Positions 41,500 to 48,177 of a stretch of 58,607 bases of DNA are shown here, piece by piece. Position 1 is the first letter of the stretch; each line of letters begins with the position of its first letter. Origin of the DNA: Candidatus Gastranaerophilales bacterium. Its GTDB lineage: Bacteria; Cyanobacteriota; Vampirovibrionia; Gastranaerophilales; Gastranaerophilaceae. The position numbers and the translations under genes were made by a program. Location of the stretch: assembly GCA_944326525.1 (NCBI GenBank), contig CALVEG010000010.1, positions 1 through 58,607 of the forward strand, written 5' to 3'. The notes under the pieces are model-generated. The model was given only the letters and a program-made list of their open reading frames with translations. It was not told where the DNA came from and did no database searches.

Positions 41500-42867
41500 A
41501 TGATGAATATTTCAAACGTAATAGAAAGATTAAGAGAAATACTAGATGATGAAAATCAAGACCAATTAAGCGAAGAACTTAATAGTTTTCACAGTGCGGA
41601 TTTGGCTGATATTTTTCAAGAACTTAAGCCCGAAGAACGTTTGAAATGTTTTAAGCTTTTGGATTTAGAAAAAGCTGCGGAATTAATGGAATATATAACT
41701 CCTCAGCTTCAGGTTGAACTCTTAGGAGATATTGATCAAGAAACAGCGTCAAAAATATTAACAAGATTACCTCATGACGCGGCTGCTGATGTGCTTGGTG
41801 ATATGGAAGAAGATGAGTCTGAGACTTATCTTGATAAATTACCACATAAATTTTCAGAAGAAGTAAGAGAATTACTTACTTATAATGAAGATACGGCAGG
41901 CGGTATTATGAACCCTGTGGTTTTGACTGTTAATTCTGATATGAGTGTTCAAGATGTGTTGAATTATATAAGAATTAAAGCTGAACGTGACAATTTGGAG
42001 CTTTATTATATCTATGTAGTGGATAAACAAAACCATCTTTTGGGAGTTGTTTCGCTTAGAAAGCTTTTAACCTCTCCTGTTAATAAAAAAGTTGAAGATA
42101 TCATGATTTCTGATATAGTTAAGCTTCATGTAGATGATTACAGTGATTATATAACCGATGAATTTATGAAATACCAGTACAATGCACTTCCTGTTGTAGA
42201 TTTATATAACAGGCTTAAGGGCATGATAACGTGGGATGATGTTCATGATTTGTTTGAAGAAGAAACAACAGAAGAAATTTACCAATCATCAGGTATTTCG
42301 ACTGAGGTTGTAGATGAAGACGAAATTTTGTCAGGAAATATATTTAATGCAATAAGAGCAAGAACGCCTTGGCTTTTTATAACTTTGCTGGGAGAGTTTG
42401 TCGCAGTAAATGTTGCCCATCATTTTGATCATACAATAGCTGCTATTCCTATAGTTGCGATATTTATGCCTCTGTTAGCAGGTTTAGGCGGAAATATCGG
42501 AACGCAAAGTATTACGTTGATGGTTCGCGGATTGTCAACTGGGCAGGTAACAATGAGTTCTGCCATGTATCATATTGTTAGAGAAATGTTTATCGGTCTG
42601 GTTATCGGTGCAATCTTTGGAATGCTGGTTACTTTTGCAACTGTCGGTTGGCAGCATAGTATAGAACTGGGAGTTGTTGTAGGTATTGCAATGACAATTA
42701 ATATGACAATGGCCACTATCATAGGCACTTTTACTCCGTTTGCGTTAAAGGCGTTAAATATTGATCCGGCGGTTGCTTCAGGACCGGTAATTGCAACTAC
42801 TATTGATGTTGTTGGACTTATTGTGTATTTTTCGCTTGTGTCAACTTTTTTATTAAAAGTAATGTAA
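41500..42867 (+). CDS. mgtE: magnesium transporter MgtE
   Basis: A 455-residue Mg2+ channel. It has the N-terminal MgtE domain (about 1-130), a pair of CBS domains (about 135-255, EDTAGGIMNPVVLTV and the second CBS around LPVVDLYNRLKG), then five transmembrane helices with the pore motif GLGGNIGTQS. CBS domains close the channel when cell Mg2+ is high. Leaderless signs are strong: TATAAT (41488-41493) ends six bases before ATG and there is no SD. Confidence 0.95.
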   Translation: MMNISNVIERLREILDDENQDQLSEELNSFHSADLADIFQELKPEERLKCFKLLDLEKAAELMEYITPQLQVELLGDIDQETASKILTRLPHDAAADVLGDMEEDESETYLDKLPHKFSEEVRELLTYNEDTAGGIMNPVVLTVNSDMSVQDVLNYIRIKAERDNLELYYIYVVDKQNHLLGVVSLRKLLTSPVNKKVEDIMISDIVKLHVDDYSDYITDEFMKYQYNALPVVDLYNRLKGMITWDDVHDLFEEETTEEIYQSSGISTEVVDEDEILSGNIFNAIRARTPWLFITLLGEFVAVNVAHHFDHTIAAIPIVAIFMPLLAGLGGNIGTQSITLMVRGLSTGQVTMSSAMYHIVREMFIGLVIGAIFGMLVTFATVGWQHSIELGVVVGIAMTINMTMATIIGTFTPFALKALNIDPAVASGPVIATTIDVVGLIVYFSLVSTFLLKVM

Positions 42868-45816: not shown

Positions 45817-46818
45817 TTAATATCTGCCGTCGCATTTTGTTCCGCAAAATTTGCAAGTGCCGTTTTCATCAAGATTGTATGCTATAAGTTCATAGCCATT
45901 TCTTAAAATTACTGGTTTGTGGCAAGCTTTGCAATAGGTGCTTGAGGTTTCTGTGTTTGTTATATTCCCTGTGTAAATGTAGTTTAAGCCGGAATCTTTT
46001 GCGATAGAATAGGCTTTTAACAATGTTGAAAAATCGGTTTGTTTTCTGTTGGAAAATTTATAGCGGGGAAAAAATGCGCTGAAATGTAAAGGAACACAAT
46101 CGCCTAAATTGTTTAAAATCCAGTCGCATTCTTCCTTTATCATATCATCAGAGTCATTTTCGCCTTCTATTAGCATTGTTGTTAATTCAACCCAGCAGTC
46201 TGTTTCATTAGAAACATATTTTATTGTGTCGAGGACAGGTTTAATATGAGCAAGGCAGTTCTTCTTGTAAAATTCTTCGCTAAATCCTTTTAAATCAATG
46301 TTTGCCGCGTCCATGTATTTGAAAAATTCTTTAGCAGGTTCTGGATTTATGTAGCCTGATGTTACGGCGACTGTTTTTATCCCTTCTGCTTTGCAAAGTT
46401 TTGCTGTGTCAATCGCGTATTCAAAAAATATTATCGGGTCATTGTATGTAAATGCAACACTTTTACAATTGTATTTTAGAGCTATTTGAACAATTTCTTC
46501 GGGGGATGTTTTATTTAAGGTCTTGCAATCTGATTTATTCTTTGTGGTCTGCCAATTCTGGCAAAATAAACACCCCATATTGCAGCCTAAAGTTCCAAAA
46601 GATAAAATCGGGGTTTGCGGGTAAAATTGATAAAGCGGCTTTTTTTCAATAGGGTCAATTGCAAGACCTGTATTGTAGCCGTATGAAGTTAACTCAATTT
46701 TGCCGTTAATATTTTTTCTAACATGGCAAAATCCTTCTTGTCCTTCGGATAAGATACATTTGCGAGGACAAATTTGGCATTGAATTTTCTCAACCTTTAG
46801 ATTGTTTTGAAATTTCAT
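45817..46818 (-). CDS. amrS: AmmeMemoRadiSam system radical SAM enzyme
   Basis: A 333-residue radical SAM enzyme. The iron-sulfur motif CxxxCxxC is C79, C83, C86 in LGCNMGCLFCQNW. An N-terminal Cys pair (CQICPRKCILSEGQEGFC) and a C-terminal zinc-ribbon-like pair (CKACHKPV and CKFCGTKC) are present. It belongs to the widely conserved but poorly understood trio of radical SAM, Memo and AMMECR1 proteins. I start at ATG 46818, seven bases after a TATAAT box and with no SD. The divergent neighbour encodes the other two parts. Confidence 0.93.
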   Translation of the reverse strand: MKFQNNLKVEKIQCQICPRKCILSEGQEGFCHVRKNINGKIELTSYGYNTGLAIDPIEKKPLYQFYPQTPILSFGTLGCNMGCLFCQNWQTTKNKSDCKTLNKTSPEEIVQIALKYNCKSVAFTYNDPIIFFEYAIDTAKLCKAEGIKTVAVTSGYINPEPAKEFFKYMDAANIDLKGFSEEFYKKNCLAHIKPVLDTIKYVSNETDCWVELTTMLIEGENDSDDMIKEECDWILNNLGDCVPLHFSAFFPRYKFSNRKQTDFSTLLKAYSIAKDSGLNYIYTGNITNTETSSTYCKACHKPVILRNGYELIAYNLDENGTCKFCGTKCDGRY

Positions 46819-46823
46819 ATGTT

Positions 46824-46835
46824 GTATTATAATAC
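46824..46835. promoter_or_regulatory. 12-bp palindromic divergent -10 element (amrS and amrBA)
   Basis: GTATTATAATAC is a perfect palindrome holding two overlapping TATAAT boxes: 46828-46833 for the plus gene and 46826-46831 (ATTATA) for the minus gene. They end six and seven bases before ATG 46840 and ATG 46818. Only 21 bp separate the two start codons, so each -35 region must lie in the other gene. Confidence 0.8.
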
Positions 46836-46839
46836 TTTT

Positions 46840-48177
46840 ATGGAAAAAATTAAACAATCTTCTGTCGCAGGAACTTTCTATCCTGCTGATGTAAATGAAT
46901 TAAGAAAACAAATTGATAGTTTTAAAGAAAATAACAAAAATACTTATGAAGTTCCAGCAAGAGCCGTAATTGTTCCTCATGCAGGACTCATTTTTTCGGG
47001 AAGACTGGCGTATGAAGGAATAAGTCAGCTGGATAAAAATATAAAAAATATTTTTATAATAGCTCCTGCGCACAGGGTAGGTTTTTCGGGGCTTGGATTA
47101 AGCAGTTTTGATTTCTGGGAAACTCCGCTTGGTAAAATCGAAATTAATACTGAAATTACAAAGGAATTAAAGGAAAGATTTGGAGCTGATTATCAGGATG
47201 ATGCAATTGCACCTGAGCATGCTATTGAAATAGAAGTTCCTATTATTCAGTCTGTTTTTGACAATGTAAACATAGTTCCGATTTTAGTCGGAAATGCTAC
47301 TCCTGATAAGATTGAAGAAATTATTTCTTATTATTATCAAAATCCTGAAAACGGATTTATTGTTTCTTCAGATTTAAGTCATTATCTGAAACATGAAGAT
47401 GCAGTTAAAATAGATACTTTTACTGCTCAATTAATAGAAAACGGAATTTGCGAAAATTTCACTCCAAATAATGCTTGCGGAGTAGTTGGCATTTTAGGAT
47501 TAATTAAATTCGCAAATAAAAACAAGTTTTCTTTAATAAGAATTGATACGACAAATTCTTATTCTGTAACTGGTGACACTTCAAAAGTAGTCGGTTATGG
47601 AACGTGGTTTTTGTTTGAAGGCGAGAAAAATACTTTTTTGAAAGAATATTATTCTGATTTTATTCTTGATTTGTGCAGAAGAAGCTTAAATGCTCAATTT
47701 GATTCAGGCAGATTAGAGGTTAAATTTCCGAAAGTATTTGCTGAAGGCGGGGCTTGTTTTGTAACTTTAGAAAAAAATAATCAACTTAGGGGCTGCATTG
47801 GTTCTATTATTCCTCATAGATCTCTTATAGAGGATATTGTTATAAATGCTCAACATGCTGCGTTTAAGGATTATAGGTTTAATCCTGTTACGAAAGAGGA
47901 AATTCCTGAACTTCAAATAGCCGTTTCACTTCTTTCCATTCCTCAAAAAATCTCATTTAAGGATGAGGAAGATTTGATGGAGCAAATTCGCCCATTTAAA
48001 GATGGTATTATAATAAGGGATGGAAATCATCAATCGGTTTATTTGCCGTCTGTTTGGGAGCAGCTTCCTGATAAAAAAGATTTCTTGCGTTCATTAAAAG
48101 TTAAAGCAGGGCTGTCAGCTGATTACTTTTCAAATACCTTTGAAGCATACAGGTTTGAGACGGTTTATATAAAATAA
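46840..48177 (+). CDS. fused Memo (AmrB) and AMMECR1 (AmrA) protein
   Basis: A 445-residue two-domain protein. Residues 1-265 are a MEMO/AmrB domain with metal-site motifs VPHAGLIFSGR, APAHRVGFSG, APEHAIEIEVP and VSSDLSHYL. Residues 270-445 are an AMMECR1/AmrA domain with the signature LRGCIGSIIPHRSLIEDI and FKDYRFNPVT. Fusions of these two families occur elsewhere, always tied to the radical SAM partner encoded divergently here. The start is ATG 46840, six bases after TATAAT and without an SD; the longer reading begins inside the promoter. Biological reaction unknown. Confidence 0.93.
   Translation: MEKIKQSSVAGTFYPADVNELRKQIDSFKENNKNTYEVPARAVIVPHAGLIFSGRLAYEGISQLDKNIKNIFIIAPAHRVGFSGLGLSSFDFWETPLGKIEINTEITKELKERFGADYQDDAIAPEHAIEIEVPIIQSVFDNVNIVPILVGNATPDKIEEIISYYYQNPENGFIVSSDLSHYLKHEDAVKIDTFTAQLIENGICENFTPNNACGVVGILGLIKFANKNKFSLIRIDTTNSYSVTGDTSKVVGYGTWFLFEGEKNTFLKEYYSDFILDLCRRSLNAQFDSGRLEVKFPKVFAEGGACFVTLEKNNQLRGCIGSIIPHRSLIEDIVINAQHAAFKDYRFNPVTKEEIPELQIAVSLLSIPQKISFKDEEDLMEQIRPFKDGIIIRDGNHQSVYLPSVWEQLPDKKDFLRSLKVKAGLSADYFSNTFEAYRFETVYIK

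Follow-up and report, generated by a model that had tools for sequence, protein, structure and literature searches.

A symmetric -10 element as a likely bidirectional promoter for two predicted leaderless genes, amrS and amrBA, in Candidatus Gastranaerophilales

Bidirectional promoters that arise from -10 symmetry have been established in Escherichia coli and Salmonella by Warman, Grainger, and colleagues (PMC12825309, PMC10268837). The common distances reported between the divergent transcription starts of such promoters are 18, 10, and 23 bp, with 18 bp being the commonest (PMC12825309). The basal activity of five bidirectional promoters tested in E. coli was too low for competition, which occurred only upon strong activation (PMC12825309). 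In Deinococcus-Thermus, a -10 element adjoining the ATG gives rise to leaderless mRNA (PMC12340547). Here, we describe a gene pair in which a single symmetric -10 element, judging by its sequence, is likely to act as a bidirectional promoter for two predicted leaderless mRNAs.

The pair was found in a 58,607-nt stretch of Candidatus Gastranaerophilales DNA, from an uncultured gut bacterium, which is referred to as the window. The gene on the minus strand, amrS (45817..46818), encodes the AmmeMemoRadiSam radical SAM enzyme (333 aa), with the TIGR04337 alignment starting from residue 2. The gene on the plus strand, amrBA (46840..48177), encodes an AmrB-AmrA fusion (445 aa), with TIGR04336 matching residues 6-255 and TIGR04335 matching residues 275-441. 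All three assignments scored above the curated cut-offs (AmrS, 484.8 versus 220 bits; AmrB, 206.9 versus 26 bits; AmrA, 184.3 versus 99 bits). Pfam matches at the pair were to Radical_SAM, Memo, and AMMECR1, and AmrB and AmrA lay within one ORF. Such fusions are also present outside the lineage: at six loci on contigs of Omnitrophota and others, a single BLAST match spanned both domains, and the fused gene was on the same strand as amrS.

The start codons of amrS (46818-46816, minus strand) and amrBA (46840-46842, plus strand) are separated by 21 bp (46819..46839) that read A TGTT GTATTATAATAC TTTT and hold the whole putative promoter core. GTATTATAATAC is a perfect 12-bp palindrome (46824..46835), and its symmetric core, ATTATAAT (46826..46833), consists of two overlapping TATAAT boxes, one per strand. 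The box facing amrBA (46828..46833, plus strand) ends 6 nt before its ATG, and the one facing amrS (46826..46831, minus strand) ends 7 nt before its ATG, a distance also seen in 49/70 loci. No GGAG- or AGGA-type Shine-Dalgarno (SD) site precedes the start of either gene. The first-pass annotation, made from the window alone, had given this description of the gap, and it proved exact. The two boxes share base pairs, which is the -10 symmetry that characterizes prokaryotic bidirectional promoters. From the -10 spacing, transcription of both genes is predicted to start at the A of the ATG, at 46840 on the plus strand and at 46818 on the minus strand, preceded in each case by a T. Promoter activity, transcript starts at the ATGs, and use in both directions are all inferred from such features of the DNA.

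A palindrome of this kind is not remarkable in itself, as the window, being AT-rich, contains 22 perfect 12-bp palindromes. In the window, as in the 1.95-Mb genome, the 12-mer GTATTATAATAC is present a single time, while ATTATAAT has eight copies in the window and 160 in the 1.63 Mb of genome sequence that were read as stretches. What stands out is the placement of the palindrome and its conservation in 86/89 divergent pairs, not the palindrome itself.

Whole-genome searches and named genome contigs supplied 89 distinct pairs of divergent amrS and amrBA genes, all from Candidatus Gastranaerophilales or near relatives, on which we assessed this conservation. The first-pass annotation had suggested comparing the palindrome across relatives with the same gene order; the comparison showed that the core ATTATAAT was kept in the 86 pairs, and the ends of the full 12-mer less so. 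The core was present in 64/64 pairs with gaps up to 24 bp and in 22/25 pairs with gaps of 37-90 bp. In 52 of the 89 pairs, the gap measured precisely 21 bp and the core kept its register with each ATG. Within this 21-bp class, the eight columns of the core were invariant (52/52), and a T preceded the ATG in 50/52 pairs on each side. AmrS identity to the window was as low as ~51% among the pairs that kept the core, so recent common descent alone does not account for its presence. At amrS loci without an adjacent divergent amrBA, the symmetric core was found in only two of ten cases. A head-to-head amr arrangement with the core was not found in deeper lineages, that is, in more distant families of the order and in other phyla.

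Both ORFs remain open upstream in the window: amrS to a TTG at 46857, and amrBA to a TTG at 46807, including an ATG at 46819. Proteins with N-terminal extensions running through the palindrome were considered and rejected, because the gaps among relatives (18, 21, 22, 23, 24, and 37-90 bp) differ by lengths that are not multiples of three and most relatives lack the upstream ATG (46819). The extended homologues that would have spoken against the earlier annotation are thus not a conserved feature of the amr loci of relatives.

The leaderless character of the two genes was evaluated against the rest of the genome, for which counts refer to 1.63 of 1.95 Mb (34% GC). TATAAT preceded an in-frame ATG at 51 sites with a spacing of 6 nt and at 24 sites with a spacing of 7 nt (75 in total), against a level of ~8 per spacing by chance or at other spacings, and there was no out-of-frame peak. 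Looked at individually, most of the 75 sites lie near ORF starts, while some are plainly internal chance matches. The SD class forms a separate peak at 5-9 nt and is the main mode of initiation signal in this genome. In each of 30 genomes of the family, the TATAAT count at spacing 6 exceeded those at spacings 9 and 12. From the in-frame peak at 6-7 nt and this excess in all 30 genomes, we infer that the family has a minority class of leaderless genes and, as far as sequence can show, both amr genes have the anatomy of this class. Their boxes, at 6 and 7 nt, occupy the two peak spacings, and SD sites were detected before amrB in 0/64 short-gap pairs and before amrS in 1/89 pairs. We found no report of leaderless genes in Gastranaerophilales in the literature available to us.

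Transcripts could also start farther upstream, inside the opposite genes, and be translated on short leaders without an SD, with the AT-rich gap serving as an unstructured ribosome-binding region. In favour of this, it is common for genes of Cyanobacteria to carry neither an SD nor a leaderless signal (PMC3160421), and both ORFs are open upstream in the window. This explanation seems to us highly improbable, since it predicts neither a sharp genomic TATAAT peak exactly 6-7 nt before the ATG, beside a clear and separate SD class, nor eight columns kept invariant in 52/52 pairs, which general AT-richness would not achieve.

The pairs with long gaps provide natural variation in the arrangement. 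In most of these pairs, the core keeps its 7-nt distance to amrS, and an SD-like site was scored for amrB in 17/25. In one of them (L206), AAGGAG lies further upstream, ahead of a longer start; in another (L069), amrB seems to have a second, private TATAAT-N6-ATG. In a third (L028, gap 37), the core remained with amrB and amrS shifted away. Only about five changes between the short-gap and long-gap states were counted on the AmrS tree, and an independent-pairs test of gap class against SD was not significant, with too few events; the contrast between gap classes in their SD sites is accordingly only suggestive, as the gap changes are few and the sequences related. The long-gap form may be the older one, for which the AmrS tree, rooted at midpoint only, gives weak support.

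The constant distance of the core from amrS, even where amrB is 45-67 bp away, would fit an element that is chiefly an amrS promoter. The TATAAT facing amrB would then arise incidentally, because a -10 element preceded by AT is nearly symmetric, and amrBA would be transcribed from elsewhere or weakly. The symmetric form at the two amrS loci lacking amrBA points the same way. We regard this as unlikely: in the 52 pairs of the 21-bp class, the plus-strand TATAAT, its 6-nt spacing, and the T-1/ATG are invariant or nearly so, and amrB has no SD; symmetry is not a usual property of leaderless-type TATAAT promoters in the genome, as it occurs in only 11/75, two of which are the amr pair; and in L028 it was amrB, not amrS, that retained the core. 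A promoter serving both genes remains the better reading of these data.

Conservation at the 21-bp gap extends past the core. The ends of GTATTATAATAC in the 21-bp class were G in 45/52 and C in 44/52 pairs, well outside the -10 hexamers, and the outer G and C occurred jointly in 44/64 short-gap pairs, a frequency not kept in the long-gap class although ATTATAAT is. Leaderless promoters genome-wide showed no preference for an outer G or C. These bases could belong to an operator or be contacted by sigma upstream of each -10 element, as a purine at -16. A palindrome that functioned mainly as the operator of a dimeric regulator of both genes, overlapping the promoter or promoters, would fit both the conserved ends and the lack of such a preference at leaderless promoters genome-wide. 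A search for exact and one-mismatch copies did not support a regulon: the genome has a single exact copy of the 12-mer, and the 14 sites with at most one mismatch in 1.63 Mb lie mostly within stop-to-stop ORFs, so that no regulon is visible. With the outer pair lost from the long-gap class while ATTATAAT is retained, and with the same bases also readable as purine-at--16 contacts of each promoter, we consider a primary operator very unlikely and continue to favour the bidirectional promoter.

The -35 elements are weak, and in neither direction does the core permit the usual extended -10 (TGn). The first-pass annotation had placed each -35 region within the coding sequence of the other gene, and this holds by geometry. 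A possible -35-like box for amrBA, TTGAAA (46807..46812, plus strand; TTGATA in relatives), lies inside amrS codons 3-4 with a 15-bp spacer and coincides with apparent synonymous constraint. At these codons in short-gap pairs, tyrosine was encoded by TAT in 60/60 cases and glutamine by CAA in 62/62 cases, compared with 71% TAT and 69% CAA later in the same amrS genes and 68% TAT and 75% CAA at codon positions 2-8 of other genes in the genome. This hints that amrS codons 3-4 double as a TTGATA upstream box for amrBA; it stays a hint because the 15-bp spacer is not optimal and the sequences are related. A clear -35 element was not accepted, as the TTGATA box lies at 15 bp, whereas TTGA in the leaderless set is found mostly with 16-17-bp spacers and in few genes.

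Similar sites were searched for elsewhere. Four close divergent ATG pairs with leaderless-like boxes on both sides were detected in the sampled genome, and the amr pair is the only one of them in which the boxes share a TATAAT palindrome. In 97 genomes of the family, most matches to the fixed pattern CAT-N7-ATTATAAT-N6-ATG fell at amr loci or next to short ORFs. Among the non-amr matches checked, one pair had long ORFs on both sides, and each of the others was flanked by a short ORF on one side or both. The former (L280 in genome G021, at about position 1500) lies between a 346-aa ORF and a 359-aa ORF that is radical-SAM-like in its CxxxCxxC start, and is apparently an independent, putatively doubly leaderless bidirectional promoter. 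In three genomes of the genus (L285, at G000:C1:345272-345298, L286, and L287), the pattern is kept upstream of a 501-507-aa ORF, and the other direction opens only an ORF of 1-8 codons. The window itself has a second divergent pair, 45 bp apart, of a TatD-type DNase gene (32070, minus strand) and a gene for a CobB/CobQ-type glutamine amidotransferase domain protein (32116, plus strand); each has its own TATAAT 7 nt before the ATG, within a long inverted repeat around TTATATCACGAATCGGATTTGTGATATAA. At 41500 in the window, the ATG of a 455-aa ORF is preceded at 6 nt by TATTATAAT; this start is of the leaderless type and has the symmetric core, and no divergent partner gene for it was found there.

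According to the mechanism that we propose, the 21-bp gap would work as a compact bidirectional promoter of the sigma-70 type, in which the core ATTATAAT provides a -10 element each way. RNA polymerase would bind in either orientation and melt the same few base pairs, and transcription would begin on the chosen side at the A of the ATG, give or take one or two bases, yielding a leaderless amrS or amrBA mRNA. The upstream promoter contacts of each side would sit within the first codons of the other gene. The likely benefit is that so small an element would express the components of a single enzyme system together.

The earlier annotation had gone further and proposed that polymerase choice at a single melted site sets the ratio of the two products. 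Its placement of two leaderless genes on one symmetric -10 element fared well: the core keeps its register with the two start codons, and the TATAAT-N6/7-ATG class is present genome- and family-wide. The setting of the ratio did not, and is the weakest step of that annotation, since the basal activity of the bidirectional promoters tested in E. coli is too low for competition; that competing polymerases affect the AmrS:AmrBA ratio is speculation. It is doubtful, though conceivable, that selection keeps the symmetric -10 element across Gastranaerophilales as a coupling device, with mutually exclusive polymerase binding fixing the AmrS:AmrBA ratio via promoter orientation. Points against the bidirectional promoter itself include the predicted starts, which from sequence are 22 bp apart as opposed to the reported common distances of 18, 10, and 23 bp, the weak -35 elements, the exclusion of an extended -10, the relatedness of the sequences compared, and the persistence of the symmetric core at two of ten amrS loci without amrBA.

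A promoter core that is apparently both bidirectional and leaderless for two partner genes, and that dozens of species keep with base-pair precision, makes a clean natural case. It renders testable whether -10 symmetry is itself something that evolution maintains, and it points to a class of leaderless genes in a gut lineage related to Cyanobacteria.

In the ermE/orf region of Saccharopolyspora erythraea, two divergent leaderless transcripts start at or near their start codons, as predicted for the amr pair. To our knowledge, the ermE/orf promoters overlap without a single shared palindromic -10 element, unlike those of the amr pair. The likeness to the bidirectional promoters based on -10 symmetry (PMC12825309, PMC10268837) lies in the short symmetric element with -10 elements that overlap on opposite strands, and in the close divergent starts and mutually exclusive binding of polymerase, both of which are predicted for the amr pair. 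The amr pair differs in that both products would be protein-coding leaderless mRNAs, that the predicted starts are not at the commonest distance of 18 bp, and that two full TATAAT boxes overlap by 4 bp at a position conserved across a bacterial family. With leaderless genes that have an ORF-adjacent -10 element, in Deinococcus-Thermus (PMC12340547) and in a bacterial survey (PMC3160421), the amr genes share a TATAAT-like box before the start codon, no SD, and a weak or absent -35 element. The leaderless genes in the parts of these two reports available to us are unidirectional, whereas the amr pair has a shared symmetric box for two genes and belongs to Gastranaerophilales. Bidirectional promoters and leaderless genes are each known, and their combination for two partner genes is a variant of both.
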